Assembly (NCBI RefSeq): GCF_000014585.1
Contig: NC_008319.1
Location: forward strand, 1,302,001-1,366,000
From: Synechococcus sp. CC9311
GTDB lineage: Bacteria; Cyanobacteriota; Cyanobacteriia; PCC-6307; Cyanobiaceae
Reading direction: 5' to 3'
Length of the DNA stretch: 64,000 nt
The position numbers and the translations under genes were made by a program. This document shows positions 14,968-55,982 of the stretch, piece after piece (within the stretch, counting starts at the first letter, position 1; every line of letters begins with the position of its first letter). Below the pieces are notes generated by a model. It searched no databases. It saw only the letters and a program-made list of their open reading frames with translations, and had not been told where the DNA came from.

Positions 14968-14969
14968 AG

Positions 14970-28441: not shown

Positions 28442-28443
28442 TA

Positions 28444-29796: not shown

Positions 29797-29817
29797 CAAA
29801 CAGATTGACCACAGATC

Positions 29818-37598: not shown

Positions 37599-37799
37599 CA
37601 AGGTTGGTTGAGGTTGTGGAACTCAGAGATCGAGGTTCGATCCAACTCAGGATGATCCCAGGAGAAGCAAGCGAAGATCCCTTATCAGATAATTGAGGGC
37701 TGTCTTGTCACAACAATCCTAAGAATCAACTAAACCCACTGAGCCCCGCGTATCCAGCCAATGTATTTCCTAGCTTGTTGAAACTTAGATGCTGGTTTG

Positions 37800-38519: not shown

Positions 38520-38520
38520 G

Positions 38521-39681
38521 ATGCAAACCTTGTGGGATGTCCTGATCATTGGAGGAGGCCCGGCTGGAGGTCTTGCTGCTTTGGATTGTGCAGCTCATGG
38601 ATTGCGCGTGTTGCTCGTAGAACAACGGTTATTTCCGCGCTGGAAGGTCTGTGGATGCTGTTTCAACAGCCAGGCCCAAGCGATTCTGAACTCGCGAGGG
38701 CAGAACAACTTGATTGTGGATAGCGGTGGACAAGCACTACAAAGCTTGCGACTTGGATTGCGTGGACGGGAGGCAACGTTGGCGCTACCTAACGGCTTTG
38801 CACTGTCTCGTGAGCGATTCGATCAAGCCCTGATCAATGCAGCAATCAAAGCTGGAGCAACAGCTCGCTTTCGAGTGACAGCCCAAGTTGGAACCGCATC
38901 CCCTGGGTACAGAAGTGTGAGCCTTAAAGATCGTCAAAGTGGGGCTACCAGCCATGTCAAAGCTCGCGTAGTGCTGGTGGCCGCTGGTCTGACCCAACGC
39001 TGCCTTCCCCAAAATGAAGCAGGGCAAAGCAGCATTCGTCAGCAATCAAGACATGGTGCTGGATGCGTCGTGGATGATGACAGCCATCACTACCCGGCAG
39101 GTGCCATTCACATGGCTATTGGTGATCGGGGCTACGTGGGTTTGGTGCGAAGGGAAGACGGATTGCTCAACCTGGCAGGAGCCTTTGATCGTGACGCTCT
39201 ATCCCAAGGCCAAGGAGCAATTGATGCGGCACAACACGTTTTGAATCAGGCAGGATTTCCTGTACCAGCTGCACTTCAACAAGGACAACGCTGGCAACTC
39301 ACTGCAGCTCTGAGCCGGAGCTCAGATGTGGTGGCAGGGGAACGCTTTCTTGTGATGGGTGACGCCGCGGGATATGTCGAGCCCTTCACCGGTGAAGGAA
39401 TGGCCTGGGCGCTAACGGCGGGTGCTGCTGCTGCACCATTCGTTCTGGAAGGACTGGATCGATGGACTGAGGATTTGGAAACGCGCTGGAAGACAACACT
39501 TCAGCGGCATATCGGCAGGCGTCAAACCGTCTGCCGCGCCCTGTCTTCGGTGTTAAAACGGCAGAGCCCCACAGCTTTGTTATTTGAACTCGTAAATCGC
39601 TGGCCCGCCATGGCTGAACAGATCATCTCCAACTTGAACGAGGTCAAGTTGCCATCGCCCAAAGGTGAGCCATGCCTCTGA
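38521..39681 (+). CDS. FAD-dependent oxidoreductase, geranylgeranyl-reductase-like
   Basis: A 386-residue protein. IIGGGPAGGLAALDCAAHGLRVLLVEQ (9-35) binds the ADP part of FAD, VCGCCFN (about 43-49) follows, and VMGDAAGYVEPFTGEGMAWAL (about 278-298) is the second FAD motif. It belongs with geranylgeranyl-reductase-like/FixC-type flavoproteins and probably oxidises or hydroxylates the polyketide, or a precursor. It overlaps the type III PKS start by 10 bases, indicating translational coupling. Confidence 0.88.
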   Translation: MQTLWDVLIIGGGPAGGLAALDCAAHGLRVLLVEQRLFPRWKVCGCCFNSQAQAILNSRGQNNLIVDSGGQALQSLRLGLRGREATLALPNGFALSRERFDQALINAAIKAGATARFRVTAQVGTASPGYRSVSLKDRQSGATSHVKARVVLVAAGLTQRCLPQNEAGQSSIRQQSRHGAGCVVDDDSHHYPAGAIHMAIGDRGYVGLVRREDGLLNLAGAFDRDALSQGQGAIDAAQHVLNQAGFPVPAALQQGQRWQLTAALSRSSDVVAGERFLVMGDAAGYVEPFTGEGMAWALTAGAAAAPFVLEGLDRWTEDLETRWKTTLQRHIGRRQTVCRALSSVLKRQSPTALLFELVNRWPAMAEQIISNLNEVKLPSPKGEPCL

Positions 39682-40766
39682 GTATTCACGGTCTCGGTAC
39701 TGCAATACCCGAGCAAACCGTCAATCAAACAGAGTCAACAGCACTGTCTGAATGGGTCAGTGCCGACAATGCAGAACGAGCGTCGCTCGTACGCCGCATT
39801 CAAAGGCGCTCGCAAGTCCAAACCAGAGGCAGTGTTTTATTAACTGGTGATGCAAAGCAAGCAATTCATCAACGCTTGCCGTTTTACGGAGTTGATAGCC
39901 CCAGCACGGCTACACGGATGGAGGCATTTCGGCTGCATGCCACTTCATTGGCGCTCAAAGCAAGCAAACATGCACTAGCAGAAGCGCAAATCTCTGCCAA
40001 TAGGATCACGCATTTGATCACTATCAGCTGCACAGGTTTTCATGCTCCTGGTGTTGATTTTGATCTGATTGATCAACTTCAACTACCTCTCAATATCCAA
40101 CGCACACATGTGGGATTTATGGGATGTCATGCGGCGTTAAATGGTTTACGCGTTGCTCACGCTTTTATAGAAGCCGATCCCAAGGCTGTTGTTCTGCTTT
40201 GCGCTGTGGAATTATGCAGTCTTCATTTGCAATACGGCTGGAATCCTGAACAAGTAGTGGCCAATACGTTGTTTGCTGATGGTGCTGCTGCTTTGATAGC
40301 GACGCGTTCTGAGATAAACAACAAAGAGCCAATCTCTGCAGGATTATCACTTCAGGCTTCTGGATCCACAGTGATTCCAGAGACCCGCGATTTAATGCAT
40401 TGGCAGATTGGAAATCAAGGATTCTCCATGGGCTTATCCCCCAAAGTGCCTAAGGAAATTGCCAAAACATTGCAACCATGGTTAAGCGAATGGCTGAATG
40501 AGCGAGGCACAGATCTCAACAGCATTCAACATTGGGCCATTCATCCTGGAGGTCCAAGAATTCTGCAAGCTTGTGCTGATGCCTTATCCCTGAGTGAAAA
40601 CCAACTTGCTGTATCAAGACATGTCCTGAGTCACTACGGAAACATGTCGTCTGCAACCGTTTTGTTTGTTCTTGAGCATATGAGACAGCACCATTGCCAT
40701 GGACCCTGTGTTGCACTTGCGTTCGGGCCAGGCTTATGCGCAGAAGTTGCTTTGATGTCTCTGTAA
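39672..40766 (+). CDS. type III polyketide synthase (chalcone/stilbene synthase family)
   Basis: A 364-residue enzyme with the complete catalytic triad: Cys120 in TISCTGFHAPGVDF, His291 in AIHPGGPRIL and Asn324 in HYGNMSSATV. HVGFMGCHAALNGLR near 146-160 and VANTLFADGAAAL near 196-208 are also typical. It makes alkylresorcinol- or pyrone-type products from an acyl starter and malonyl-CoA; starter and chain length cannot be read off. It is the last gene of the MT/FAD/PKS operon, with the P450 opposite. Confidence 0.93.
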   Translation: MPLSIHGLGTAIPEQTVNQTESTALSEWVSADNAERASLVRRIQRRSQVQTRGSVLLTGDAKQAIHQRLPFYGVDSPSTATRMEAFRLHATSLALKASKHALAEAQISANRITHLITISCTGFHAPGVDFDLIDQLQLPLNIQRTHVGFMGCHAALNGLRVAHAFIEADPKAVVLLCAVELCSLHLQYGWNPEQVVANTLFADGAAALIATRSEINNKEPISAGLSLQASGSTVIPETRDLMHWQIGNQGFSMGLSPKVPKEIAKTLQPWLSEWLNERGTDLNSIQHWAIHPGGPRILQACADALSLSENQLAVSRHVLSHYGNMSSATVLFVLEHMRQHHCHGPCVALAFGPGLCAEVALMSL

Positions 40767-40872
40767 ATGCAATGAACTCAAGTGCAATGAATATTGATTG
40801 AGTTTCTACTTCTAACGATAGGGATATTAAAGGAACCCAGCCACTTATGATCATGGAAGTGTTACCGATGTG

Positions 40873-41382
40873 ATGGGGATGAAACGGGTTTGTTTGGGGA
40901 TTTTAATCGCTCTATTTTTCGCAATCCTCTCTCTTCCTGTGAATGCTCAGCAGACAGCAAACGTCATAGAGGAACCATTGAGTCCATCCACTCCCTCCAA
41001 GATTGCCATTTATCGATCTGAGAGTTGTGGGTGCTGCACAAAATGGGGGGAGTACATAGAAGCTGAAGGCTTCCCGATCCAAGACAAGGTGGTGAAGGAT
41101 ATGGATGCTTTCAAACAAGCCAATGGGATCACCCCAGAGCTGGCGTCTTGCCACACTGCGGTAGTGGAAGGATACGTTGTGGAAGGGCATGTTCCCGCAG
41201 CATCCATCAACAAAATGTTGGACGAACGTCCAGACATCAAAGGTCTCACAGCGCCTGGAATGCCCATGGGATCTCCTGGGATGGAAACGGCAGGTATCAA
41301 AGCTGAAGCCTTTGATGTCCTTGCCATCGCGCACGATGGAACGACCACTGTCTTTGATCAGATAAGGCCTAAGCAACCATAA
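40873..41382 (+). CDS. DUF411 family exported protein
   Basis: A protein of about 169 residues. The signal peptide runs from MGMKRVCLGILIALFFAILS to about VNAQ. The mature domain has the DUF411 pattern IYRSESCGCCTKWGEYIE (metal-binding CGCC), ITPELASCHTAVVEGYVVEGHVPA and a final IKAEAFDVLAIAHDG. DUF411 proteins are periplasmic and often linked to copper or other metal handling. The starts GTG 40870, ATG 40873 and ATG 40879 are all possible. Confidence 0.86.
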   Translation: MGMKRVCLGILIALFFAILSLPVNAQQTANVIEEPLSPSTPSKIAIYRSESCGCCTKWGEYIEAEGFPIQDKVVKDMDAFKQANGITPELASCHTAVVEGYVVEGHVPAASINKMLDERPDIKGLTAPGMPMGSPGMETAGIKAEAFDVLAIAHDGTTTVFDQIRPKQP

Positions 41383-41548
41383 TTTTGGCGAGTCCTGAAA
41401 CACTTACCATCACGGATAGTCGACAGATTTAGAAAAACTCTGCTCTACCAAAAGACCTTAACGGGTAAAATTACCAACGTATTTTTACAGACAACTGTGC
41501 AGGTGAATTCACAGTTAAATAATCAATTTTCATGCAAGACATCATCCT

Positions 41549-42415
41549 CTAGCGCATTAGTCCAAGAGCATGCGCATGATGCTCCAAATGGCGATCGATC
41601 ACGCTGGCGACGAAAAAATAGCTGTGGTCGTATCCCTCATGAATGAATAACGCCAGTGGTTGATGGTTGTTTGCCGCAGCAGTGCGCAAATCAGTTGCAC
41701 GTAGCTGCTCGTGCAGAAATGGATCGGCTGAACCCAGGTCAACCAACAGCTGGTCGTTTCGACGGTAACCGTCTTCTAACAAGGCAACGGCATCCCACTG
41801 CCGCCATCGCAGTTGCGCTTCAGGGGTAGTGCCAAAAAAATAACTAAAGGCTTTTCGCCCCCAGGGACATTGGCTGGGGTGGGAAATCGGAGCTACTGCC
41901 GACACTGATTGATAACGGTCTGGATGACGCAAACCAAGAACCAAGGCACCATGGCCCCCCATCGAATGACCAGATAGTCCAAGACGCTGATCATCAAGAG
42001 GCAATTCAGAGCAAAGCCTTAAAGGCAATTCCTCCAGCACAAAGCTATGCATCCGGTAATGCTCAGACCAGGGATCTCGTTCAGCATCAACGTAAAAACC
42101 TGCTCCACAACCAAAATCCCACTCCCCTGATGGATCTGTAGGAACGTTGTCTCCCCTTGGACTGGTATCCGGAGTAATTAATGCCAGGCCAAGTTCAGCA
42201 GCTCGGCGCTGGGCACCAGCTTTCTGCACAAAATTCTCATCAGTACAGGTCAGTCCAGACAACCAAATCAATGCAGGTACAGGTACCGCATCAGTCACAA
42301 GAGCACTCGGAGGTAAAAACACGCCCACGGTGCTGCTGCCATTCAACTGCTTAGACTCCAAGAGATAGCGGCGTTGTTCCCCGTCGAAACAACGTTGGCT
42401 GCTCAGCAATTTCAT
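41549..42415 (-). CDS. fghA: S-formylglutathione hydrolase
   Basis: A 288-residue alpha/beta hydrolase (esterase D family). The opening CFDGEQRRYLLES is followed by LIWLSGLTCTDENFVQKAGAQ near 48-68 and the nucleophile elbow LGLSGHSMGGHGALVLGLRHP, with Ser about 148; HDYSYF-like GYDHSYFFVA near the end holds the catalytic His. It releases formate from S-formylglutathione, the second step of formaldehyde detoxification. It lies 17 bases after adhC on the same strand. Confidence 0.92.
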   Translation of the reverse strand: MKLLSSQRCFDGEQRRYLLESKQLNGSSTVGVFLPPSALVTDAVPVPALIWLSGLTCTDENFVQKAGAQRRAAELGLALITPDTSPRGDNVPTDPSGEWDFGCGAGFYVDAERDPWSEHYRMHSFVLEELPLRLCSELPLDDQRLGLSGHSMGGHGALVLGLRHPDRYQSVSAVAPISHPSQCPWGRKAFSYFFGTTPEAQLRWRQWDAVALLEDGYRRNDQLLVDLGSADPFLHEQLRATDLRTAAANNHQPLALFIHEGYDHSYFFVASVIDRHLEHHAHALGLMR

Positions 42416-42432
42416 TCTTTCAATAATCTCCG

Positions 42433-43659
<1,227 letters not shown>

Positions 43660-43677
43660 TCAATCTGAAGACGCGTG

Positions 43678-43818
43678 GTGATTAACAACACCATTGATCA
43701 AATGTTAGACAACAAAATCGGCCAAGACTCATCCCTGGCCAATCAACTACAGGCATTGGAAAAACTGCAGAAAGTCCAGACAAAGCAAAGTGTCACTAAT
43801 CCAAGACCATTGACCTAG
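43678..43818 (+). CDS. 46-aa hypothetical protein
   Basis: A GTG-start frame in the gap between adhC (divergent) and the DUF2834 gene (convergent, 4-base overlap). The peptide is helical and amphipathic, with a clear heptad-like stretch (SLANQLQALEKLQKVQTKQ), which suggests a short coiled coil. An internal ATG at 43702 would give 38 residues. The family is unknown. Confidence 0.42.
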   Translation: MINNTIDQMLDNKIGQDSSLANQLQALEKLQKVQTKQSVTNPRPLT

Positions 43819-44180
43819 GCAGAAGCATTGGTGGACCGCATTAGATTACGCTCTCTATTAAACATAAAGAGTCCGAATGAAAACGCGAAAGAGATTCCAA
43901 AGGTTGCCACAAAATAAAGATACCAATACTTCATCTTGAGCCTCATTGCCTCAGCAACAATGAATGCAAAGGCAGCGATGAGGACGAGCGTTAAATCCGC
44001 CGCAATAAAACCAGCGGAAGCATTCGCCCAGACCCCCTGAGAAAACAGTTCAACAATTTCGAGTGGGTCGGTCAGACCTAAAGCTTCTGTTTCTTGGATG
44101 AACTGGTAAATGCAGTACCACGGCCAGACAACCCCCCCCACAGCTGTGACGGCATAAATCAACAATCGTAGCTTTGCCAT
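43815..44180 (-). CDS. DUF2834 membrane protein
   Basis: A 121-residue protein with three membrane spans, at about 7-27, 60-80 and 87-107. The middle contains FSQGVWANASAGFIAADLTLVLIAAF, typical of DUF2834, a small family of unknown function. It stands alone between the small plus-strand ORF and the cellulose-synthase-like gene. Confidence 0.78.
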   Translation of the reverse strand: MAKLRLLIYAVTAVGGVVWPWYCIYQFIQETEALGLTDPLEIVELFSQGVWANASAGFIAADLTLVLIAAFAFIVAEAMRLKMKYWYLYFVATFGISFAFSFGLFMFNRERNLMRSTNASA

Positions 44181-44381
44181 AGCAACAAAGGAAGAATGCC
44201 CACTATCTCATACGAACAGCTGACAGTAAGTACAAACGCTACAGAGGCGCTTTGTATTAATCTGGGAATAATCAATAGTCGTCAAAGATTAAGCATTAGA
44301 ACTACAGCAAAGTACAGCATTGTCAATCATAACAATGAGAAGACACGAGCCAAACAAAGCCATGGCTATTATAACGGTTGC

Positions 44382-46370
44382 TTAAACATAAGATATACGC
44401 AACAATCTCATGAAAGCCTGAATAGGCCTCTTACCATATGGATACTGCAAAGAAGGCCTTGAAGACTGGTAAAGATATTTATTTAGAAGTTGTTGTTGAA
44501 TGGAGTCAAAACGATTAAAGCTAAGACTAGAAGCAGCGCTATGATCAGAAGAAGTAACACAAACTGCATCAATAATGATAGTTTTGGTCAAATGAATCTT
44601 GCAAACACTACTTTTAGGAATATCCTTAAACGAAGAATCTATTACAAAAGAGCAGCCAAGCGGAGAAATTGATGTTACCAAAACTGGTAACACGAGATTG
44701 TCATCAAAAACAATTTTAGAGCGTTGATTACAGGAAAGCAAATATTTAGCTTCGTTGTCTTCGCGCTGGCTGGACATCAACAAGACAACACCTAATATAC
44801 AAATATTGTAAATGATCCAAATAAGAGTTACTAGACGCGACGACGTAGGAGATACTTGCACGTAATGAGAAGAATTAGTACCTACAACCACCAAGCTGAT
44901 AAAGTTAATTAGGAATAAAGCAAATGCAGGCCTCAGTGTTGGCGTGTAGTAACGCTCACTAACCGACATTTTACCTTTTGGCGTAACTCTAAACGGAGCT
45001 CCAAATGGTTTTATAAATGTAGAAAGAATTTCGGTGTAAACGCCTAATCCAATAAATGTATTAACACCTTCACTCAAAACTGGAAGGTAATGCTTGTCAC
45101 TCAATAGCAACATTGCCATATGAATAGACACAAAAAATGGAATAAATAAATATGGAAACTCAGATATAGTAGATACGGGAAATGGCGATAGACCAAAGAA
45201 GACGGTAAGTGCAGGTATGATAAAAAAGATTGGACGCAATAACGTATTCAAAATACTCAAAGCAGGATTTAATAAAATACGATGAGATAAAGGTAAACCC
45301 TTCATCAAAGTCATAATCATGGAAGTTTGAATTGCACCACGGACCCATCTCCTACGTTGAATAAAGAAAGACTTAAGGGACTCAGGTGAAAGACCTCTTG
45401 CCATAGGTAGTGAATGAAAATATGTCTTCCAACCTTTAGAGTACAATATAATACTAAGAAGAGTATCTTCAGTGACTGATTTAGTAGGGAAACCACCAAT
45501 TTCTAAAATAGCTGTTCGTCTATGGATAGAAGATGATCCGCAGCAAGTTGCAAGGCCAATTGAATTCTTTCCTGGTTGCACAACATTGTGATAGAAGGCT
45601 TGCTCATCAACCCAAAAATTATTTAATCTCAAATTACTAAGAATGGGATCAGGGTTGAAAAAGCAGTGTGGGGTTTGAATAGTAGCAATGTTCGAATTGG
45701 ACTCGAACTTAGAAATGATAGGACCTAATGAATCAGCGAAAATCACAAAATCTGCATCCAAAATCACAAAGTATTTACCAAATGTTTTTTGTAGAGCGTT
45801 ATTAAGATTGCCAGCTTTGGCATGAACATTTGATGTACGAGTAATGTATCCGACTTGAAGCTCAGTACATAGCTTATCTACCCATTTTCTATTACCATCA
45901 TCCAAAACCCAGACGTTAGAATTTTGATACTTAACATTCATTGCTGCCATAATAGTCGGAGTTATGATCTCCTCGTCCTCATTGTATGTTGTGATAAAAA
46001 TATCAACAGATGGAGAGTTTCTTAAAGCTTTATTACTTAAACATAACTCAGGAGTAAATCTTGTACTAAAATTAATTAAAGGTAAATGCCTATTAAGAAC
46101 TTTGCCAGAAGGCTTTAATAGAATCAAGGAATAAAGCAAAAAGTCAACATATGCAAGAATTTCCAAACAAAAGAGTAAAACAGTGAAAATGTAATCAGAA
46201 GTATATATAAAATCATTTGCAATAATACCGTTAAGCCTCCAAAACAAATAGATTGCTCCAGTTAGGAAGAATACAGTAACGGTAACTAGCCTTCTTAAGA
46301 GGCAAGGTTTAAAACCAAAAAAGAAAAAAATTGCACAGACATTAAGAAAAATAAAAGCCCAAAAATTCAT
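44382..46370 (-). CDS. cellulose-synthase-like processive glycosyltransferase (GT2, BcsA type)
   Basis: A protein of about 662 residues with N-terminal spans before and C-terminal spans after a GT-A domain. The processive-GT2 motifs are all present: DDG (157-159), DAD (205-207), QTPHCFFNPDP (232 on), TCCGSSS, TED (300-302) and QRRRW (338-342). Such enzymes polymerise UDP-sugars and push the glucan through their own channel. The C-terminal tail (about 550-640) has a PilZ-like SISPLG but no clear c-di-GMP RxxxR. It starts four bases after the HlyD-type gene's stop. It is strongly A+T-rich. Confidence 0.9.
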   Translation of the reverse strand: MNFWAFIFLNVCAIFFFFGFKPCLLRRLVTVTVFFLTGAIYLFWRLNGIIANDFIYTSDYIFTVLLFCLEILAYVDFLLYSLILLKPSGKVLNRHLPLINFSTRFTPELCLSNKALRNSPSVDIFITTYNEDEEIITPTIMAAMNVKYQNSNVWVLDDGNRKWVDKLCTELQVGYITRTSNVHAKAGNLNNALQKTFGKYFVILDADFVIFADSLGPIISKFESNSNIATIQTPHCFFNPDPILSNLRLNNFWVDEQAFYHNVVQPGKNSIGLATCCGSSSIHRRTAILEIGGFPTKSVTEDTLLSIILYSKGWKTYFHSLPMARGLSPESLKSFFIQRRRWVRGAIQTSMIMTLMKGLPLSHRILLNPALSILNTLLRPIFFIIPALTVFFGLSPFPVSTISEFPYLFIPFFVSIHMAMLLLSDKHYLPVLSEGVNTFIGLGVYTEILSTFIKPFGAPFRVTPKGKMSVSERYYTPTLRPAFALFLINFISLVVVGTNSSHYVQVSPTSSRLVTLIWIIYNICILGVVLLMSSQREDNEAKYLLSCNQRSKIVFDDNLVLPVLVTSISPLGCSFVIDSSFKDIPKSSVCKIHLTKTIIIDAVCVTSSDHSAASSLSFNRFDSIQQQLLNKYLYQSSRPSLQYPYGKRPIQAFMRLLRISYV

Positions 46371-46374
46371 AATC

Positions 46375-47556
46375 TCAAACCTCAACTCTTACTGGTTGGC
46401 CGTATGGACAATTTGATCCAATTTCATGTTTTGGAACTGCAATATGAAGCCTTACTCGTTCAGATTTTGATGTAGGAAAAATAACTGAACTAAATTTCAA
46501 CTCAGACAAATCAATAGATTCCCATTGTTTGCTAAGCAAAACACCATTGTATTTTTTGTTGTTTATTTTATCAAAAACACTGAGAGAATCACCAGGATTT
46601 AAATGTCGTACTTTTCTAGGTTCAAAAAGAGCTTCTACACGTAATGATTCACAATTCACAAGTGTTAATAGGCTTGTACCTTTTGAAACTTCTTTGCCAG
46701 AATTAGCCTTTCGCGCTAATACTAAACCAGTAAAGTTAGGTGCAAACTTGAATGAATTTCTAGATTTGATTTGCATAATTTCTCTATTTTTAATATTTAG
46801 TTCATCGTTTAACTCATAGAGAGAAAGTCTATGATTACTTATTTGAAGATCATGTTGAGACAGTGACTTGGCAGAAATTGGAAGTTTGCCAGTAGAATCT
46901 GCTAAATATATTGAAGATGATGCCAATTGCATTTTAAGTTTATTTTCTAATCTCTTTTGATATTCTAATTCGGATTTTAAAGTATTGTAGGCGGAATCAT
47001 TAGTTAGTCGGTCTGATAACGATATTGCATCTTTATTAGTTTCAAAATCAATCAATTCTTTTAGTGACTTGTGTTTAAGGAAATCATTTTCAAGTGAAAT
47101 TATCAGTGATTTTGTCTTATGCAAATCATCCTTTATTGAACTAATACTAGATTCAATAAGAAATGAAAGCTCAGGCTGAAGTCTATCAATTTTAGTTAGA
47201 ATCGTATCCCTTTCAAGTATTGTTGTTTCAAGAAGATCTTTACTTCTTTTTGAACCATTAATTTCAATTAATAGCTCATTAGCACTTACTAGCTGTCCAG
47301 TTTGAACAGTCGATCGCGATACCATACCATCTAATGGAGATACAACTTCAGTCACATCACCTGTAATATATGCACGAAGACTTGTATCTTCAACAAATAG
47401 AAAAGAAAAGGCTGTGATACCACCAAATAGTGAGATAAAAGAAATCAGCTTTCTTCTCGACAAATTCCTAAATATCGGAGATTCCACAATTATTTTTCTT
47501 ATAGATTTCTTGTTCTCTTTAGAAATGTTTTGATTGTGCGTGCTGTCAGTGTTCAT
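46375..47556 (-). CDS. HlyD-type periplasmic adaptor (membrane fusion protein)
   Basis: A 393-residue protein. A cytoplasmic N-terminus is followed by one span near 40-56, then a lipoyl/barrel half (DVTEVVSPLDGMVSRSTVQTGQLVSANELLIEING, about 76-110). A long coiled coil runs over about 113-265, and the second half-motif is FAPNFTGLVLARKANSGKEVSKGTSLLTLV. Such adaptors bridge an inner-membrane exporter to an outer-membrane channel. It is directly upstream of the cellulose-synthase-like gene in one operon, and no ABC exporter or TolC is nearby, so the synthase is the likely partner. Confidence 0.87.
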   Translation of the reverse strand: MNTDSTHNQNISKENKKSIRKIIVESPIFRNLSRRKLISFISLFGGITAFSFLFVEDTSLRAYITGDVTEVVSPLDGMVSRSTVQTGQLVSANELLIEINGSKRSKDLLETTILERDTILTKIDRLQPELSFLIESSISSIKDDLHKTKSLIISLENDFLKHKSLKELIDFETNKDAISLSDRLTNDSAYNTLKSELEYQKRLENKLKMQLASSSIYLADSTGKLPISAKSLSQHDLQISNHRLSLYELNDELNIKNREIMQIKSRNSFKFAPNFTGLVLARKANSGKEVSKGTSLLTLVNCESLRVEALFEPRKVRHLNPGDSLSVFDKINNKKYNGVLLSKQWESIDLSELKFSSVIFPTSKSERVRLHIAVPKHEIGSNCPYGQPVRVEV

Positions 47557-47733
47557 GAGAGCTCGGTGATATATTCAAATTTTATGTAAATGAAAATTCA
47601 TAACCCTTAATTTACAGACATACGCAAATGCACAAAACCACATAGAGAATTCGCAAAACGCTATGATGATGTGATAGTTGATTCCGTATGTATCAAGGTT
47701 TACAAGTACTTGATGTAAGTAGAAACAAGTAAA

Positions 47734-49374
47734 ATGAAATTGAAAACCAATTCGAAAATATTTTTATCCTTGTTGGCATTATATTCTATATATGAATATA
47801 GTTTTAATAAGGCATTTGGTTCTACTCAAAAAACCATAAACGAGACAGTTGATATTACGATCAATTCAAAAAAAGCTACTCATAAGATAAGTCCACTTAT
47901 ATTTGGTATGAATCGTTTTGATGATGATGTTCTCGTTAAAGTTAAACCATCGATAATGCGTTGGGGAGGGAATGACACAAGCAGATATAATATAAATTCT
48001 GACACAACGAGTCTAGGAAAGGATTATTTCTTTCAGAATATACCGAAACCAAAGGACTTTCTTTCAACTCTTGTTAATAGAAATAAATCTGCTAACATTA
48101 ACACTATAATTACTTTACCATTATTGGGATGGATCCCTAAAAGAAGAAAGGAAGAACATCCATATGATTGTTCTTTTAGTATAACAAAATATGGTTTACA
48201 AGATGATGTTGATACATGGGACACCGACTGCGGTAATGGTTTTAAAGATAACTTAGCTCTTACAAATAATAATCCACAAGATGCGAGCATTTTATTTAGT
48301 AAAGATTATCAATCTAAATTTCTAAATTTATTTATTAGAGAATTTGGACTAGCAAGAAATGGAGGAGTCAGATTCTACAGTTTAGATAATGAACCAATGT
48401 TGTGGCATAAGACCCATCGGGACGTTGTTAAAAAACCAATAAATTACACAGATTTACTTGATAAACAGATTAAGGGTGCATCCATTATTAAACAAACTGA
48501 CCCAACTGCCGCCACATTAGGTCCAGTCTTGTGGGGCTGGTGTGCATATTTCTTTTCAGCTCAAGATGGCTGTAAAGCAGGATCAGACTATAGAAAAAAC
48601 CAAAACTTATCTTTTTTACCATGGTATTTAAAACAATTTTACAATCAGGAAAAGAAAAATAAAATCAGGCTCCTCGATTTTCTTGATGTTCATATTTATC
48701 CTCAAGGTGATAATATCTATTCTCAAAATCCTGGTACAATTAAAACACAGAAGTTACGATTGCGTTCAACAAATTCACTATGGGACAAGTCTTACATTGA
48801 TGAAAGTTGGATTAATCAGCCAATTTATTTGATTAAAAGATTGAAAAATTGGATTGATTTGTACTACCCAGGTACTAAAATTGCAATATCAGAGTACAAT
48901 TGGGGAGGCTTTAGTAGTGTGAATGGAGCAATTGCTCAAGCTGACATATTAGGTATATTCGGGTCCGAAGGGGTAGATATTGCAACTCATTGGGAATATC
49001 CCAAAGCAACTATGCAACAACCTGGTGTTTATGCATTTCAGATATACACTAACTTCGATGGAAAAGGGAGTGCTTTTGGTTTAAATGGTGTCAATGCTGC
49101 TTCCAGCAATAGAGAAAAAGTTTCAGTTTACTCATCTCTGCAAGATAAAGGAAATCTTACAACAATATTTATTAACAAGTCATTCAACACTGTTTTAGCT
49201 GATGTGTCACATATTACAAACAAAGAGTTTGCCGCTGAAGCAGAAACTTACACATTTTCTTCAATTAATTCTTCTTCAATTTTAGCCAATCGTGTGTTAC
49301 TGCCTGATTTGAACAAATTTAAATTAACTCTCCCAGCTCAATCAATTTGTTTACTTCTTTTGCACAAACAATAA
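47734..49374 (+). CDS. secreted GH44 endo-beta-glucanase-like protein
   Basis: A 546-residue protein with an N-terminal signal/anchor segment (about 8-30). The family-44 features are ISPLIFGMN (52-60), SIMRWGGNDTSRYN (73-86), YSLDNEP with the predicted acid/base Glu220, and AISEYNWGG with the predicted nucleophile Glu387. A C-terminal beta region ends in QSICLLLL. GH44 enzymes cut cellulose, xyloglucan or mannan internally. It is divergent from the HlyD/GT2 operon across 177 bases and shares its low GC, so it probably trims the exported polymer. Confidence 0.88.
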   Translation: MKLKTNSKIFLSLLALYSIYEYSFNKAFGSTQKTINETVDITINSKKATHKISPLIFGMNRFDDDVLVKVKPSIMRWGGNDTSRYNINSDTTSLGKDYFFQNIPKPKDFLSTLVNRNKSANINTIITLPLLGWIPKRRKEEHPYDCSFSITKYGLQDDVDTWDTDCGNGFKDNLALTNNNPQDASILFSKDYQSKFLNLFIREFGLARNGGVRFYSLDNEPMLWHKTHRDVVKKPINYTDLLDKQIKGASIIKQTDPTAATLGPVLWGWCAYFFSAQDGCKAGSDYRKNQNLSFLPWYLKQFYNQEKKNKIRLLDFLDVHIYPQGDNIYSQNPGTIKTQKLRLRSTNSLWDKSYIDESWINQPIYLIKRLKNWIDLYYPGTKIAISEYNWGGFSSVNGAIAQADILGIFGSEGVDIATHWEYPKATMQQPGVYAFQIYTNFDGKGSAFGLNGVNAASSNREKVSVYSSLQDKGNLTTIFINKSFNTVLADVSHITNKEFAAEAETYTFSSINSSSILANRVLLPDLNKFKLTLPAQSICLLLLHKQ

Positions 49375-49818
49375 TAATCACACCACCGCAATAAAGAATA
49401 AATTGTATTTAAGGCAATGCAATAACTTTGTTATCCACAAAGATCAAAATACTACTCATTACTCCTGTATTAGTGCCTGAATAATTTGGAAATCATGGCT
49501 AAATTGTTTAATTGATATTCAAGCTATGGATGTAAAATACTAACCAAAAACACCAGCCTATTAAATTTATAAATCACTTGGGCGCCTGCTACAAGGGCTT
49601 ATATGGATATAGATAGTGGTAACAAAAAAGAGCCGGCTTTTTCGCAGCATGCATTTAATGAACCTTCAGCATCTCTTAATTATCCAAAAATTTGCGCTTC
49701 CTTTTAAGACAATTTCTGCAAGTAAGTGGTCTTAAAATGTCGGAATAGGTCATTCACGAGCGATGCAATATAAGAAATTACGGGTAACAATTCAACGTCT
49801 TCTAAATTAAATTAGGAC
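49375..49818. other. intergenic region with inverted repeats
   Basis: 444 bases without a gene. A weak A+T stem (AAAAAG/CTTTTT) lies around 49624-49645 and could end the GH44 transcript. The TTTTAAGAC/GTCTTAAAA pair is listed separately. Confidence 0.35.
49702..49737. promoter_or_regulatory. inverted repeat TTTTAAGAC-n18-GTCTTAAAA
   Basis: Both 9-base arms are identical to those at 1688-1713, and again the right arm runs into ATG; here only a three-codon frame follows. It may be a copy of the same regulatory element that has lost its gene, or a binding site for the same factor. Confidence 0.35.
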
Positions 49819-50295
49819 TCATTCCATCATCAATTTGAGCGGGGCATTGAGTGCCTGAAAATTATGGTCATTAAGATTGGTATCGCTCAACTCAAGGTTG
49901 TAAAAAAGCGCAGTTGGTGCATGAAAAAATGGCCCAGAGTGCCAAGTGCCCTGGTGAAGCTGTACAGCTTCACCAGGGCCTACTGCCACCAACAGCACCG
50001 ATGCAGAAGAGAGCTCCTCGGGTTGAAGCGCTGGAGCGGCTACGGCAAGCCACCAAGGTTGCGCATCAGCAGACCCCAAACATTGGGTAGCCCGCTGATG
50101 GCGAGTCATGCTTGCCAACACTGCCGGTCGATGACGTAGACGCATTACGTAGTAACGGAGGTCTGCGCCTTCAAATTTGAGCTTGGCATCGACGTCGCTA
50201 TGAGGCGTCATGTCGTCCACTGGGAAGATCGCAGTGCCAAAGCGCTCAAACTTGCAATGTCCCAAGGGGAGGGCAGTCAGTGTCGCTGCAGTCAT
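49819..50295 (-). CDS. ureidoglycolate lyase family protein
   Basis: A protein of about 158 residues, a cupin-fold relative of AllA. FERFGTAIFPVDD near the N-terminus and VAVGPGEAVQLHQGTWHSGPFFH with DTNLNDHN near the end match ureidoglycolate lyase, which splits ureidoglycolate into glyoxylate and urea in allantoin breakdown. The ATG at 50295 gives the usual short N-terminus; one at 50316 is also in frame. No other purine-catabolism genes are nearby. Confidence 0.8.
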   Translation of the reverse strand: MTAATLTALPLGHCKFERFGTAIFPVDDMTPHSDVDAKLKFEGADLRYYVMRLRHRPAVLASMTRHQRATQCLGSADAQPWWLAVAAPALQPEELSSASVLLVAVGPGEAVQLHQGTWHSGPFFHAPTALFYNLELSDTNLNDHNFQALNAPLKLMME

Positions 50296-50678
50296 GACAC
50301 GATGATCACTCAACATCCGCTTTAGCTCATCGCCAGTGTTGTTGATGAATCACTTCCAAAAAGTGTTAACAGAAGCGCTCCTATCATCAGACATGAAACG
50401 ATTACAACATGCTAAATCAACGCAATGAATAAGATGTGGACAAAGCCATATCACGAGACAGCGTTCGCACTGTCATGAAACAAAAACCTTGATAAGTCTA
50501 ATGACAGGGACACTCAAAATATTGACCCCAAAAACGCGTCTACACATAAAGATCCAACTACAGAACAAAAAGTCTGCGCCTCCAAGCGATTTGTCAGACA
50601 TTCCCAACAAAAATTGCTGACATATCAAGGCAATGCCCGTGTTGATGCATTAAAAAGAGGAGATCTGATCGATCACAA
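50296..50678. other. intergenic region with a possible gene remnant
   Basis: The plus-strand frame open from about 50480 to 50681 reads protein-like near its end (KRFVRHSQQKLLTYQGNARVDALKRGDLIDHK) but has no normal start, and its stop overlaps the next GTG. It may be a decayed upstream gene. Nothing else was seen. Confidence 0.25.
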
Positions 50679-51059
50679 GTGACAACAAAGCAAGAGGCAC
50701 ATACAATTATCAAGGATTGCCTTGAAACAAATAACGCGTGGGTTGAAACTTTTAACGAGCTCGGTTGCGTACTGGCATTCGACCTCGACCCGATGCTTGA
50801 AGGGACCGTCACCGTGGACTTCATCGTCAAAGATCTCTGGGACAAAGGAATAAGGGCCACTCAAGACGAAGTTGTTAAATGCATTTGCAGCTATGCCATT
50901 GAAAATGATTACATCTGGTCTATAGAAACTATCTTTGACAACTATGAGTACACAGCTAAAACCCTTGAGAATCTTGGCGAAGACAGCAAAGCATTGTTGA
51001 CTGACATGGCCAACGATTCGGGCAATGAAGCCTTTAAAACCATGACCAAAGCAGGCTGA
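50679..51059 (+). CDS. hypothetical protein, 126 aa
   Basis: A GTG start gives a soluble, acidic, mostly helical protein (MTTKQEAHTIIKDCLETNNAW... to FKTMTKAG). It contains three cysteines and no membrane segment. The overlapping minus-strand frame (50673-51080) is judged the shadow, because its composition is aromatic- and cysteine-rich in the way antisense frames are. Family and function are unknown. Confidence 0.58.
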   Translation: MTTKQEAHTIIKDCLETNNAWVETFNELGCVLAFDLDPMLEGTVTVDFIVKDLWDKGIRATQDEVVKCICSYAIENDYIWSIETIFDNYEYTAKTLENLGEDSKALLTDMANDSGNEAFKTMTKAG

Positions 51060-51304
51060 TAGACAATCCAAATAGAACAATTCATTCGATATTGATCAAA
51101 GTATGTAGTCAATACCAAAAGCAACCAATCTTTCAGCCACCTAGCCGTTGCAAGCAACAGCTATTACAGCTGTATATAAATACCATTACGCTTTATCACT
51201 AAAATTCAAAACGCACTAATAATCATGCCATCGACAATACAGAACATGGCTCTACCGAAAAGCAGGGATGGCTTTTGTAGAACATCACCGGCCATACTGA
51301 GAAC

Positions 51305-51430
51305 ATGAAACGTCTCCTACAACTCATCAAGCGACTAACAGGAAACACGCAGAAGCCTCCGCTTCATACACCTGAAGAGTTGGAGTGCTTCAAACGGGAT
51401 GCTATTGAAAATCGGGGAAAGCACTACTGA
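51305..51430 (+). CDS. 41-aa hypothetical protein
   Basis: A short ATG frame, MKRLLQLIKRLTGNTQKPPLHTPEELECFKRDAIENRGKHY. It has a basic amphipathic N-terminal helix and a Pro hinge before an acidic helix. It is more protein-like than the overlapping frame at 51399-51611. No family is recognised. Confidence 0.45.
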   Translation: MKRLLQLIKRLTGNTQKPPLHTPEELECFKRDAIENRGKHY

Positions 51431-51672
51431 TCAGGGCGGATTGGAGTTGGGACTGATTGCAATCCTTTTGAAGGCCTCCAAATGGCGGGCTAATACAGTC
51501 GCTTTTTATAGAACACGACAGATCACACCTATGGAGGCATCAAAGCTCCAAAGCTCAAATTCACTGAGCAACGAACGCAATACTCTGGTGAGAATTTTTA
51601 GGAAACCATGATGGCTAAATCATCAATTTCCAGTCTCCTCTTTAGCTCTCATCTCGATCAGCTCAAATCCAC

Positions 51673-51966
51673 TTAAAAGTAGAGAAGACTTGATCGGCAA
51701 AGGCGAAGAGCATCACGGGCCGAATCCACCGATGCCTCGTTGGGCGCGATCAAACCTTTTGGCACAACAAGTTCGTCATTAGGATCCAAGTGAACCCGCG
51801 CAGAGAACCAAGATCCACCCCCAGGAATAGATGCACGACAAACGTGATTTTGTTCGTTGTCAAGCTTGCGTTCAATCAACCAGCTATCGACACGATCAAG
51901 CATCTGAAAACTCTGAGCCAGCGCTGATGTTCCAATCAGCGAAATCAGTAGCAAGGTGTGTTTCAT
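51673..51966 (-). CDS. small secreted hypothetical protein
   Basis: A 97-residue protein with a clear signal peptide (MKHTLLLISLIGTSALAQ, cleavage after ALA). The mature part has two cysteines (NHVCRAS and ALRLCRSS) that may form a disulfide, with GGGSWFSARVHLDPNDELVVP between them, a beta-rich domain. The function is unknown. Confidence 0.68.
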   Translation of the reverse strand: MKHTLLLISLIGTSALAQSFQMLDRVDSWLIERKLDNEQNHVCRASIPGGGSWFSARVHLDPNDELVVPKGLIAPNEASVDSARDALRLCRSSLLYF

Positions 51967-52211
51967 CAGTTCAGTCTGTCAGCATCAGTCATTCGTGCTG
52001 TTGCACTCTTTGACCGGAAGTTGAGTTGATACGAAAACTTACAGCCAGTCGCATTAGCCAATGAAATCTATGACGGATCATAGTTTCTTCTCTTCATAGG
52101 TCTGAATATCAACAGAGATTGAAATCATGGTTCGTCATGTCATCACTGGCTTTCGATTACTACCAACGTCATCTGAGTAGCGATTGAGAGAATGTGTTCT
52201 TGATCATTAAA

Positions 52212-53744
52212 TCAATGCTTGGAGGTCATGGCATGAAGAGCCACACGATTGATCTTTCCTACAGAATTCAGAGGTAGAGAGGTAAGGACCTGCAACACTT
52301 CCGGAGCCTTGTACCCAACACGCTCACGGGCGAAAGAAATCAGTTCTGGAACTGTGGGGAGATCACATCCGGATTTGAAGGACACATACGCATGCACATT
52401 TTGTCCATGCACGGCATCTTCAATCCCGATCACGCCTGCCTGGTCTACAGCGGGATGCTCCATCAAAGCCTCCTCAACATCTTGAGGACAAATATTGGAT
52501 CCGTCGTGAACGATGATTTGTTTTCGGCGACCACAAAACCAAAGATAGCCATCATCATCGAGACGCATAGCGTCGCCGGTGTTAAGCCAACCCTCCTGAA
52601 TGGTCTCTGCTGTAGCGGCAGGATTATTCCAATATCCCACCATCAAAGTGGGCGACTTAACCCAGAGCACACCCTCCTCACCAAAACTCAGCTCGCGTCG
52701 ATCGGATGAGCGGATGCAGCCTTCAAAACCAGGACACATCTGACCAACAGATCCAATCCGATTTTCACCTTCAATTGGGGAGAGGCTTGCAAAGCCAATC
52801 TCACTCATGCCGTAGCACTCATCAATACGCTGTCCGGTTGCTTGCTCAAACTCCACATGCAACTGATGATTCACCTTGTCTCCACCACTGATGCAAAGGC
52901 GAACCGATGAAAAGTCGCTGCGTTGTAGACGTTCATCACGCACAAGGCTGAACAACGTGACAGGTAAGGCCAACATGACCTGGGGGTGGTGCTGCCGAAG
53001 CAACATTTCAAGGCAGCTACAACTGAGATTGTTAGGCACCAGAACAGAGGCGCCACGGCACAACGCAGACAAAGCAAACGTGGATGAAGCGATATGGGAT
53101 AAAGAGCCACCAGCTAGAAATTGCTCACCAGGCTTTAAGCCGGTGGCATCCAGAACAGAAGAAAATATCCAGCCCAAGCTTTGCCGTGTATGAGTGACAC
53201 CCTTCGGTTTCCCTGTGCTTCCTGAAGTGAAGAACAAAAAACAAGGCTGATCAGATTCATGATCTGTTTGGGAAAGGGCAAGCTTTCCAATGTCTTGTCT
53301 CAGCTTGGAGATGAATCCAGCGTCATTCGCCGTTATGCATCCAAGATCGCAGGCACTTGAAACATTGCTGGCATCAATATCAGTCTGACGTTCGCAGTGA
53401 TGTAACACGCATCTGGCACCGCTGACCTCAAGAGCATGGTTGATTTCGGGAACGGTATAGCGATAGTTCAGTGGCGTTAAAACAAGCCCACAGCGCAAGC
53501 CAGCTAAATAATGAATCAACAACTCCAAACTATTTGGCATCAGTGATGCAATTCGGTCACCAGGGCGAAGACCAATGCTCAGATAATGCTTAGCTAGATC
53601 ATTGCAAGACTGTTCAAGTTCAGCCCAGCTCATGCTGCGGCTTAGATCATGCAGAGCAACTGCAGCTGAATCTCGGCTCAAAGCTGAACGCAGCGGATCG
53701 TTGAGAGCGACTGGTTCAGCAAGGGATCGACCGGAGACTTGCAA
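52212..53744 (-). CDS. AMP-dependent acyl-CoA synthetase/ligase
   Basis: A 510-residue ANL-superfamily enzyme. The phosphate loop is FFTSGSTGKPKGVTHT near 172-187, ECYGMSEIGFASLS near 310 binds AMP, GWLNTGDAMRLDDDGYLWFCGRRKQIIVHDG near 387-417 covers the hinge, and the C-terminal catalytic Lys lies in LNSVGKINRVAL. It activates a carboxylic acid as adenylate and then, usually, CoA thioester. A link to the type III PKS (starter supply) is possible but 11 kb away. The start is TTG at 53744. Confidence 0.9.
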   Translation of the reverse strand: MQVSGRSLAEPVALNDPLRSALSRDSAAVALHDLSRSMSWAELEQSCNDLAKHYLSIGLRPGDRIASLMPNSLELLIHYLAGLRCGLVLTPLNYRYTVPEINHALEVSGARCVLHHCERQTDIDASNVSSACDLGCITANDAGFISKLRQDIGKLALSQTDHESDQPCFLFFTSGSTGKPKGVTHTRQSLGWIFSSVLDATGLKPGEQFLAGGSLSHIASSTFALSALCRGASVLVPNNLSCSCLEMLLRQHHPQVMLALPVTLFSLVRDERLQRSDFSSVRLCISGGDKVNHQLHVEFEQATGQRIDECYGMSEIGFASLSPIEGENRIGSVGQMCPGFEGCIRSSDRRELSFGEEGVLWVKSPTLMVGYWNNPAATAETIQEGWLNTGDAMRLDDDGYLWFCGRRKQIIVHDGSNICPQDVEEALMEHPAVDQAGVIGIEDAVHGQNVHAYVSFKSGCDLPTVPELISFARERVGYKAPEVLQVLTSLPLNSVGKINRVALHAMTSKH

Positions 53745-53864
53745 GGCAGCAACTCAATTTCTTACTTTGATAGCACGCATCAAACGATCGAATTCTTTAG
53801 AGACCTGCGTTCAAAGGCACATACAGAACACACTGGAGGAGTCCTCTTCTGCCATAAAAAATCT

Positions 53865-55937
53865 GTGACAGGGACTCCGCTTCACCCTCTCCAACAGTTG
53901 GCTCCCTACATCGTGGGTCGCGTTCGGCGTGGAGTTGTAGGCAGCAGTCGCTACGCCTGCAAGCTACGTGAAGCGATCCGAGGCGCAGCCTCAGATTCCG
54001 AGCGCAGACCTGTTCTGATCTACGGGGAGCCTGGCTTGGAAAAGGACAACATCGCGTCTTTGATTCATTTTGGATCGCCAGACCGCAAGCATTTCATGCT
54101 TCGGTTGGATGGAGCTCTTCTCAAACCAGATGGCAGCGACATTTTCGGCTCTCAGGGAGATCCGTCCAAACCGTCATTACTGAAACAACTGGGGCATGGA
54201 TCGCTACTAATTGATCAGCTGGAACGGGTGCCAGAACAGCTCAAATCTCGCCTGTTGGAGTTAGCAGAAGGAAAGGTTGATATCCAAGTCCGGCTGATCT
54301 TCACCTCGGAAACAGTCAGTCCTGGCTTTGATCGTTGCTGCACATTGATCCGAGTTCCCCCCCTGCGTGTACGCCGGCAGGATCTCGGTGAATGGCTGCG
54401 CTACGGAGTTCGGCAACGCAGTTCCATCTTGGGCTGGGCTCAAGCTCCTCTAGTTCCGGAGGCGGTGGTGAAACAGTTGCAGGCTTACGACTTCCCCAAC
54501 AATCTGCGTGAGCTTGAAACGCTGATACAGCAGGCTCTCCAACAAATGGAACAGGAAGGCCAAGCCGCACCAAACGTGATTCCAGAAGTCGTGTTCTGGA
54601 CACCTACAAAGCAACAGCTCTATCGCTTCGACATTTGGCGTTGGAAACCAAAGCTACGCGAGTTGATGCGCTCCCAGTCGTTATGGAATGGGTTGCTGTT
54701 TGGAATTGTGAGCTGGTTGTTTGTGTTGGTGAACCTTTGGTTATGGCTCGGACCACAAGACCGGGCCCATAACGGCGCACTCAATCTGTTCTGGGCCTGG
54801 TGGTGGCCTCTCATTCTTTTGAGTTACCCATTCGTGGGTCGACTGTGGTGTTCCTTCTGCCCATTCATGGTCTGGGGAGAGATTGTTCAACGCAGCGCTC
54901 GCAGACTTGGCTGGCAACCCAATCGCTGGCCTCGAAGTCAAAGCGACACTTGGGCCTCACCCGTGCTCGCAGCTGGATTTTCTGTGATTTTGATCTGGGA
55001 AGAGGTGTGGAACCTACAAAACACAGCTTGGTTGAGCAGCTGCCTCTTGCTTGTCATTACAACAGGTGCAGTGATCAGTTCGCTGCACTTTGAAAAACGA
55101 TTTTGGTGTCGTTACCTCTGTCCGATCGGGGGAATGAATGGGTTATTTGCCAAACTTTCCGTCTTAGAACTACGAGCGAAAGCAGGAACATGTAGCGGCA
55201 GCTGCAGTAGTTATGCCTGTTTCAAAGGAGGACCATCTGAAGGGGACGGATTTGCCACGGAAGGATGCCCACTTGGAACGCACCCCGCCCATCTACAAGA
55301 CAACCGCAACTGCGTTCTCTGTCTCACTTGCGCGCAGGCCTGCCCACATCAATCCGTGCAAATTTCTGTGCGGCCACCTGCAGCAGACATTCAGCGCACG
55401 ATGCAATTTCCAAGTGGCGAACCGGCGCTTATTTTGGTTTTAGCAGGTGATATTTGCTTGCAAAACTGGCAACAACTATGGAGCTGGTGGACTCAGGCTC
55501 CGCTGAGCCTTGCCCAAGGTCCATTGCTCCCAAGACTTGGCATCGCGGTAATCACGCTGGCTTTTCCTGCAAGCATCTACGCAATCGCTCGTCTTCTGCT
55601 CAAAAAGCAAAGACTCCAACGCACACTCTATGGATTGCTGCCATTGCTTTGGGCACTCATGCTGGCTCAATATCTACCTCTAGGTATGAGCGAAGGTGGA
55701 GCTTTCTTACCAGTGAGCTTCTCTCCTCTTGATCTTTCCTGGCAGGAAGCGCTGCCTGTTTGGAGAGCTGATTCCCATGTGATTGGTTTCTGCCAAAGCG
55801 GAGCTGTAGGTGTGGGTTTGTTGTGGAGTGTGGTGCTACTCAGGCGTCAGCTGGCTACCCATCGCTCGGCCTGGATTGTCGCTTCCGCTTGGGTTTCCGT
55901 TCTTGCAATAGGTGGACGATGGCTCGTCAACAGCTAA
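53865..55937 (+). CDS. AAA (sigma-54-activator-like) domain fused to membrane polyferredoxin
   Basis: A protein of about 690 residues. Residues about 15-240 follow the layout of sigma-54 activator AAA domains (PVLIYGEPGLEKDNIASLIH, VPPLRVRRQDLGEWL, YDFPNNLRELETLI), but the Walker A lacks GTGKE and the sigma-54 contact loop is absent. Several membrane spans follow, with CSFCPF, CRYLCPIGG, a four-Cys CSGSCSSYACFKGG..CPLG stretch, and CVLCLTCAQACPH, the NapH/CcoG-like 4Fe-4S pattern. The start is uncertain: GTG 53865 is preferred over TTG 53739, which overlaps the divergent ligase gene. Confidence 0.8.
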   Translation: MTGTPLHPLQQLAPYIVGRVRRGVVGSSRYACKLREAIRGAASDSERRPVLIYGEPGLEKDNIASLIHFGSPDRKHFMLRLDGALLKPDGSDIFGSQGDPSKPSLLKQLGHGSLLIDQLERVPEQLKSRLLELAEGKVDIQVRLIFTSETVSPGFDRCCTLIRVPPLRVRRQDLGEWLRYGVRQRSSILGWAQAPLVPEAVVKQLQAYDFPNNLRELETLIQQALQQMEQEGQAAPNVIPEVVFWTPTKQQLYRFDIWRWKPKLRELMRSQSLWNGLLFGIVSWLFVLVNLWLWLGPQDRAHNGALNLFWAWWWPLILLSYPFVGRLWCSFCPFMVWGEIVQRSARRLGWQPNRWPRSQSDTWASPVLAAGFSVILIWEEVWNLQNTAWLSSCLLLVITTGAVISSLHFEKRFWCRYLCPIGGMNGLFAKLSVLELRAKAGTCSGSCSSYACFKGGPSEGDGFATEGCPLGTHPAHLQDNRNCVLCLTCAQACPHQSVQISVRPPAADIQRTMQFPSGEPALILVLAGDICLQNWQQLWSWWTQAPLSLAQGPLLPRLGIAVITLAFPASIYAIARLLLKKQRLQRTLYGLLPLLWALMLAQYLPLGMSEGGAFLPVSFSPLDLSWQEALPVWRADSHVIGFCQSGAVGVGLLWSVVLLRRQLATHRSAWIVASAWVSVLAIGGRWLVNS

Positions 55938-55982
55938 CCCACTCATGGTTGGAAGCACATCCCCTACTTACCGTCCTGACAA

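Follow-up and report, generated by a model that had tools for sequence, protein, structure and literature searches.

Background

Passages of PMC12430437 divide cyanobacterial cellulose synthases into two structural types, carrying either a PilZ domain or a plant-like PCR domain, mention a proposed XcsA-XcsB-TolC route that still awaits experimental confirmation, and record operons of XcsA, XcsB and an endoglucanase in S. elongatus and Nostoc punctiforme. A clade of family 2 glycosyltransferases (GT2) confined to cyanobacteria and of unknown function is reported in part of PMC6821405. In rhizobia, the mixed-linkage beta-glucan synthase BgsA is coupled to BgsB, a HlyD-like protein that probably contributes to the exit channel, according to passages of PMC9495663. 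For the polymer of S. meliloti, lichenase is reported to release products of DP2 only (PMC7997180). Passages of PMC5567048 state that RxxxR and D/NxSxxG motifs bind cyclic di-GMP (c-di-GMP) in cellulose synthases and that BgsA binds it via a non-PilZ C-terminus, residues R599 and H615. Here we report on a window of 64,000 nucleotides of Synechococcus sp. CC9311 (NC_008319.1, positions 1,302,001 to 1,366,000), in which an AT-rich island carries a HlyD-family gene followed by a GT2 gene and, divergent from them, a gene for a family 44 glycoside hydrolase (GH44). Judged by sequence, the HlyD-GT2 pair is best explained as a divergent representative, in picocyanobacteria, of the Bgs-type, HlyD-coupled beta-glucan synthases; the kin of the pair had been misjudged in a preliminary description of the locus. 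The whole is most plausibly a new form of such a synthase, situated on an island, which has probably lost its c-di-GMP switch and has gained a GH44. In searches of the open literature, subscription papers being mostly outside it, no title or abstract opening among the papers listed dealt with this operon or with a Bgs-type synthase in cyanobacteria.

The HlyD-GT2 pair and its relatives

Three open reading frames (ORFs) were present at 44382-46385 (-), 46375-47556 (-) and 47734-49374 (+), forming uninterrupted frames of 662, 393 and 546 codons for GT2, HlyD and GH44, respectively. Four bases separate the HlyD stop codon TGA from an ATG at 46370, and the longer GT2 ORF with a TTG start is unneeded because this ATG sits so close behind the stop. 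The start codons of HlyD and GH44, on opposite strands, are 177 bp apart; both spacings agreed with the preliminary description. The GT2 contains DDG, KAG, DAD, QTPH, CCGS, TED, QRRRW and FRVTPK, with all core motifs of processive GT2 enzymes present, including the five (DDG, DAD, QTP, TED and QRRRW) recorded before. It matched glycosyltransferase family 2 models and fell under the cut-offs of the CelA model TIGR03030 (337 bits, cut-off 699 bits) and of NF008558 (229 bits, cut-off 992 bits), as did BgsA and the single XcsA-like protein from cyanobacteria that was run against both. The second ORF encodes a HlyD-family adaptor (PF13437 and PF16576). The initial view that a BcsA-like processive synthase is paired with a HlyD adaptor is borne out. 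By the families found, there was no BcsB among the scanned neighbours, a genome-wide BcsB search not having been made.

A search of 388 genomes of the family to which the strain belongs gave seven GT2 matches at 1e-57, namely the window itself and six genomes of a sister picocyanobacterial genus, coded g8 (loci L211-L216). The g8 proteins are the closest GT2s to that of the window (up to 358 bits; 28-32% identity in an alignment of four), and a GT2 of this type is adjoined by a HlyD gene in all six picocyanobacterial loci. By blastp, the window HlyD scored 108-132 bits against the four g8 HlyDs compared and 44 bits against BgsB; with three XcsBs the score was 30 bits or less, one of them giving no match. 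In a tree of 43 rows, for which eight of 45 rows (three BgsA near-duplicates and five cyanobacterial rows) were left out and six g8 rows added, the window GT2 joined the six g8 GT2s at a support of 99/99, and this group joined rhizobial BgsA at 99/96. Approximately unbiased (AU) tests rejected a grouping with the 17 XcsA-type rows (16 cyanobacterial rows and the second GT2 of this genome), both for the window GT2 alone (p-AU 0.0023) and for the window together with g8 (p-AU 2.9e-5), as well as a grouping of the window with BgsA apart from g8 (p-AU 0.0031). The g8 rows were added after the family search had revealed them, and the tests of XcsA and BgsA placement were therefore not blind. Membership in the Xcs system had been our first working idea and was dropped on this evidence; kinship with the synthase-HlyD-TolC route of thermophilic cyanobacteria (XcsA/XcsB), a route cited in the preliminary description, was likewise not supported, a place for the window GT2 among the XcsA-type rows having been rejected.

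Searches beyond the family placed HlyD-coupled synthases of this kind in other bacteria. In plasmids, rhizobial synthases ranked top for GT2, and in seven annotated records from alphaproteobacteria, rhizobial and other, GT2 directly follows a HlyD gene; the S. meliloti protein among the loci (L159) was recognised as BgsA by its agreement, at a single offset, with all 10 of the published residues. Seven of 398 genomes in a sample of Pseudomonadota matched the GT2 at 1e-70, with HlyD directly upstream in every case. An ABC exporter as the partner of HlyD, raised in the preliminary description, would be less expected in view of these seven loci and the six of picocyanobacteria. A direct rhizobial origin, suggested by the best 20 plasmid matches, all of them rhizobial, was dropped, the g8 GT2 and HlyD being closer and a grouping with BgsA apart from g8 being rejected. 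In a class-wide cyanobacterial sample, 109 of 388 genomes, its own included, matched the GT2 at 1e-60, and none of the other genomes listed belonged to the same genus or family. The same search with HlyD returned the window only, among 388 genomes; the six g8 genomes had not surfaced in this sample. HlyD gave no match in the plasmid search, and scans of viral contigs with HlyD and GT2 gave no confirmed match. Absences of HlyD are weaker than those of GT2, because phmmer detects distant HlyDs poorly when the window HlyD serves as query (BgsB, 35 bits).

The locus may be compared with the known systems as follows. With BgsBA of Sinorhizobium meliloti and Rhizobium etli, its sister group, it shares a HlyD gene directly before a GT2 of the 660-aa class without canonical PilZ motifs, and it groups with BgsA, though nearer to g8; it differs in an identity of about 30%, in that BgsA has R599 and H615, and in that a mixed-linkage product is known for Bgs alone. 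With XcsA/XcsB/XcsC of Thermosynechococcus, S. elongatus and Nostoc it shares a parts list of synthase, HlyD and endoglucanase, the last represented by the adjacent GH44, whereas the Xcs synthases are of PilZ type (both points after passages of PMC12430437), form a separate GT2 clade, are longer (710-817 aa in 21 rows of cyanobacterial XcsA-like proteins) and come with HlyDs of which three were hardly similar; the window GT2 lies outside the XcsA clade and had no Pfam match to PilZ. The order HlyD then GT2 was also found in cyanobacterial loci (L141 and L148, for example). The plasmid operon GH8-HlyD-GT2 of Pacificitalea manganoxidans resembles the locus in having a glycoside hydrolase beside a HlyD-coupled GT2, but its hydrolase is a GH8, all on the same strand, and its GT2 belongs to a different sub-branch.

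The genome contains a second cellulose-synthase-like GT2 of 671 aa (L015, 9265-11280; genome 561-563 kb), which forms a long branch on the cyanobacterial XcsA side. A relative of the window HlyD was not matched in the 19 kb compared around it.

The g8 operon and the c-di-GMP switch

In all six g8 loci, HlyD, GT2 (655-658 aa) and, in third position, a gene for a protein of about 660 aa stand in a row, at a GC of 0.53-0.60. HlyD and GT2 are separated by 3-5 bases in five loci, and in L214 the HlyD ORF overlaps GT2 by 176 bases. The third gene encodes a CHASE-PAS-GGDEF diguanylate cyclase according to Pfam in the four of six that were scanned, and the GGDEF motif is present in all six. RxxxR and D/NxSxxG were found in the C-terminal region of the six g8 GT2s, and neither occurs in the window GT2. 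With PF07238 (PilZ), one of two g8 GT2s passed at 26.6 bits (cut-off 22.5) and the other stayed below at 17.1. Because the g8 GT2s carry PilZ motifs and a cyclase gene lies beside them, c-di-GMP probably switches the g8 synthase on, and the g8 operon is a candidate for a glucan synthase that is switched by c-di-GMP and comes with a cyclase of its own. The window shares with it the closest GT2 and HlyD, the same gene order and a nearly equal GT2 length, and differs in lacking the cyclase gene and the PilZ motifs, in GC and in the other neighbouring genes; GH44 has no relative in the g8 loci. The g8 operon stands beside a gene of 1339 aa in the six genomes.

At the columns of R599 and H615 of BgsA, the window GT2 has a gap and S, respectively; among 11 alphaproteobacterial HlyD-coupled rows, both residues occur only in the three BgsA rows. 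No diguanylate cyclase gene adjoins the window operon. Direct c-di-GMP control is probably gone, because the PilZ motifs, the R599/H615 match and the adjoining cyclase are all absent. An unrecognised binding mode, constitutive activity or decay of the synthase are all possible, and the intact frames and motifs would favour an active synthase. The one g8 cyclase that was compared matched three of the four GGDEF hits of the genome, over its PAS-GGDEF half only, at 25-30% identity.

The GH44 protein

The third ORF was identified as GH44 by PF12891 (210 bits, cut-off 25), and residues 36-543 align with the solved cellulase 3ii1, so that the domain is full-length. E220 and E387, which we take to be the catalytic pair of GH44, did not vary in any of the 85 aligned rows (one locus entered twice), confirming the two catalytic glutamates first noted. 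The protein had also been called secreted; residues 9-19 at the N-terminus are indeed its most hydrophobic stretch of 11 residues, but a 19-residue hydrophobicity scan gave nothing above 1.3, and the protein is probably exported. Passages of an exoproteome study that included strain CC9311 (PMC4949707), matched on a few terms, name no GH44. Against the NCBIfam family EpsB, a GH44 family named for exopolysaccharide synthesis, it reached 327 bits, far under the 1250-bit cut-off; EpsB presumably belongs to a pathway type different from that of the window. The protein is divergent, with an end branch of 2.51 compared with a median of 0.21 in the GH44 tree, where its neighbours are from Chloroflexota and Thermodesulfobacteriota rather than the cyanobacterial rows; the tree settles neither its placement nor its origin.

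GH44 was found in five of 388 cyanobacterial genomes, its own included. In the 10-19 kb examined around GH44 of the four others, one of which (L020) ends at a contig edge on one side, there was no relative of the window GT2 or HlyD. Of 398 relatives confirmed in public genomes, the best 80 were kept, with at least 5 kb on both sides in 42 and on at least one side in 66, and phmmer at 1e-4 found no relative of the window GT2 or HlyD near these 80 either. Consequently, GH44 as a conserved partner of the pair was rejected on both sets of neighbourhoods, and the earlier proposal that it replaces GH8 as a conserved part was not upheld, GH44 occurring in four of 387 other genomes and in none of them near a relative of GT2 or HlyD. 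Since no other GH44 locus examined has such a relative, the trio is known only in this genome. The preliminary description had looked to co-occurrence of the three genes in relatives: GT2 and HlyD are indeed conserved together, but GH44 is not, and in the nearest relatives the third gene is the cyclase.

In one cyanobacterial locus (L019, 1158-10998; the same locus as L090 of the public set), GH44 lies about 4-8 kb from two small GT2-family genes, of 419 and 418 aa, and one gene of the GT1 family, beyond an ORF of 1171 aa. At 1e-3, blastp matched none of these glycosyltransferase genes to the window GT2.

Candidate outer-membrane partners

Two outer-membrane efflux genes, giving four domain hits, are present in the genome, near 945 kb and 2226 kb. 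One of them has a FUSC gene and a further HlyD gene nearby. The neighbours of the other are inositol-phosphatase-like, DUF512 and BacA genes, with no transport partner among the three scanned, and this gene is the freer outer-membrane candidate.

Proposed function and alternative explanations

We consider it rather probable that the locus encodes a Bgs-type synthase pair, likely to be off direct c-di-GMP control, with export through HlyD and a TolC-type channel and with GH44 trimming the product outside the inner membrane. According to this model, GT2 would polymerise a UDP-sugar, most likely UDP-glucose, while threading the chain through the inner membrane, and the HlyD adaptor would convey the chain through the periplasm to an outer-membrane channel of TolC type, for which the two efflux genes are candidates. 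The synthase, having neither an adjoining cyclase nor PilZ motifs, would probably run outside direct control by c-di-GMP, and the divergent GH44, probably exported, would act on the island's polymer and trim or release it outside the inner membrane. The export path, the loss of allosteric control, and both where GH44 is located and what it does are what we infer from the arrangement and the sequences of the genes.

Several points weigh against this model. Before the g8 rows were added, the XcsA kinship of the window GT2 was borderline (p-AU 0.054), and the very long branch of this protein (3.05) and its unusual composition make its exact position uncertain and any finer placement unsafe. The sugar and linkage of the product are likewise inferred, the choice of outer-membrane partner is a guess, and the sequence signal for export of GH44 is weak. 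The link between GH44 and the synthase is drawn from divergent neighbourhood and shared composition, because the pairing was seen in one genome only of all those searched. As to control, BgsA binds c-di-GMP without PilZ motifs, and loss of the motifs is therefore no proof that binding was lost; R599 and H615 are mismatched in the window, yet they are matched by no rows of the alignment other than the three of BgsA; the genome retains four GGDEF hits; and the loss of motifs may reflect decay instead of a new mode of control.

Such decay is the core of an alternative that we regard as rather improbable, namely that the island is degenerating and that the synthase, deprived of its activation site and cyclase, no longer makes a polymer. 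The missing PilZ motifs and adjacent cyclase and the long branches would be consistent with it, whereas the three intact frames, the catalytic motifs kept in both enzymes and the tight four-base junction argue for function. It is also unlikely, although it deserves more weight than decay, that the GT2-HlyD pair works as proposed while GH44 is unrelated cargo of the same AT-rich hot spot, serving in scavenging or acting on polysaccharides of others. The neighbourhoods of GH44 in the four other cyanobacteria and in the best 80 of 398 relatives, devoid of GT2 or HlyD relatives, would fit this, as would its nearest tree rows in Chloroflexota and Thermodesulfobacteriota, for what an unsettled placement can tell; on the other side, GH44 and HlyD start divergently 177 bp apart with similarly low GC at third codon positions, a hydrolase accompanies the related GH8-HlyD-GT2 operon of Pacificitalea, and in one other cyanobacterium three different glycosyltransferase genes are situated 4-8 kb away from GH44.

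That the locus is an ordinary cyanobacterial Xcs cellulose system, with GH44 in the role of XcsC, appears quite improbable. The parts are of the same kinds, the order HlyD then GT2 recurs in cyanobacterial loci L141 and L148, and the XcsA-XcsB-endoglucanase operons of S. elongatus and Nostoc punctiforme, as described in passages of PMC12430437, offer a precedent. However, the placement of the window GT2 with XcsA was rejected, the protein has neither a PilZ match nor PilZ motifs, its HlyD scores far higher with the four g8 HlyDs than with three XcsBs, and GH44 was not found in the S. elongatus control genome.

If the Bgs-type model is true, HlyD-coupled synthases of this type would be a third kind in cyanobacteria, among abundant primary producers; small genomes could then show whether HlyD is a conduit for a polysaccharide synthase, and the fate of a synthase after losing its c-di-GMP switch would become testable. 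The locus further points to one place from which marine aggregates, and the bacteria feeding on them, might obtain beta-glucan. More speculatively, and doubtful as a whole, some picocyanobacteria may produce a mixed-linkage type of beta-glucan by means of a Bgs-type, HlyD-coupled synthase controlled by the diguanylate cyclase of its operon, and one marine lineage may have acquired such a synthase in AT-rich form, given up all control by c-di-GMP and added an exported GH44, with the result that output would be set by cutting outside the membrane and not by allosteric switching inside.

The island and its site

The features of the island are listed in Table 1. GC values of GT2, HlyD and GH44 were 0.35, 0.32 and 0.33, respectively, compared with 0.44-0.55 in 13 other nearby genes, and those at third codon positions were 0.29, 0.20 and 0.25 compared with 0.40-0.52, in keeping with the A+T-richness of all three genes noted at the outset. 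The genome is a single contig of 2,606,748 bases.

Table 1. Features of the AT-rich island and its flanks (positions in the window)
Feature	Position	Strand	Remarks
GT2 processive beta-glucan synthase, putatively Bgs-type (HlyD-coupled), 662 aa	44382..46370	-	C-terminal PilZ-like region without c-di-GMP motifs
HlyD-family periplasmic adaptor, BgsB-like, 393 aa	46375..47556	-	One N-terminal hydrophobic segment
Divergent intergenic region, 177 bp	47557..47733		Promoters of both transcription units presumed there
GH44 endoglucanase-like protein, 546 aa	47734..49374	+	Short hydrophobic N-terminus (export inferred); catalytic E220, E387
AT-rich island	44245..49818		Left edge approximate; right edge before ureidoglycolate-lyase-like gene
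DUF2834 left flanking gene	43815..44180	-	Adjoins site in three relatives
Ureidoglycolate-lyase-like right flanking gene	49819..50316	-	Adjoins site in three relatives

For comparison of the site, the conserved neighbour gene AdhC was located in nine of 31 genomes of the genus (its own included), and the eight relatives were compared. The DUF2834 and ureidoglycolate-lyase-like flanks were 1.6-1.75 kb apart in three of them (L196, L197 and L198); the other five did not keep this arrangement. The intervals of the three, 81-97% identical in DNA, carry an ORF of about 460-470 aa, and that of L197, the one scanned, encodes a cytochrome P450 (PF00067). No remnants of the island were found in these intervals except a 24-bp match at the left edge, ending near 44245. 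Since the same flanks enclose a P450-type gene in three relatives, the island occupies a site where relatives carry another gene. The island may have replaced the P450 gene, or the latter may have arrived later, either order being compatible with the data. Foreign composition and absence from the three relatives with the same flanks support the horizontal acquisition that had been proposed for the island. No convincing boundary repeat of the island was identified; an Rfam scan of 40000-56000 gave no matches, consensus promoter sites in 44000-50000 were no more frequent than in shuffled sequence, and no terminator-like sites were seen in the island region.

Other features of the window and related loci

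Genes for a methyltransferase-like protein (by eye), an FAD oxidoreductase and a type III polyketide synthase stand in a row at 37797-40766. In L196-L198 the P450-type gene is a few kb from the polyketide synthase row, at the site that holds the island in the window. At 13066-17414, an ATP-dependent DNA ligase gene adjoins that of an Lhr-type helicase at 37-41% GC, and the two look like a separate repair or mobile module. A SAM-dependent carboxyl methyltransferase (PF03492), of a family known mainly from plants, is encoded at 23058-24149, and two SPFH/Band 7 proteins are encoded side by side at 27206-29799. Outside the window, the GH8-HlyD-GT2 row of Pacificitalea (L162) is carried by plasmid pDY25-A of an alphaproteobacterium from Pacific sediment.

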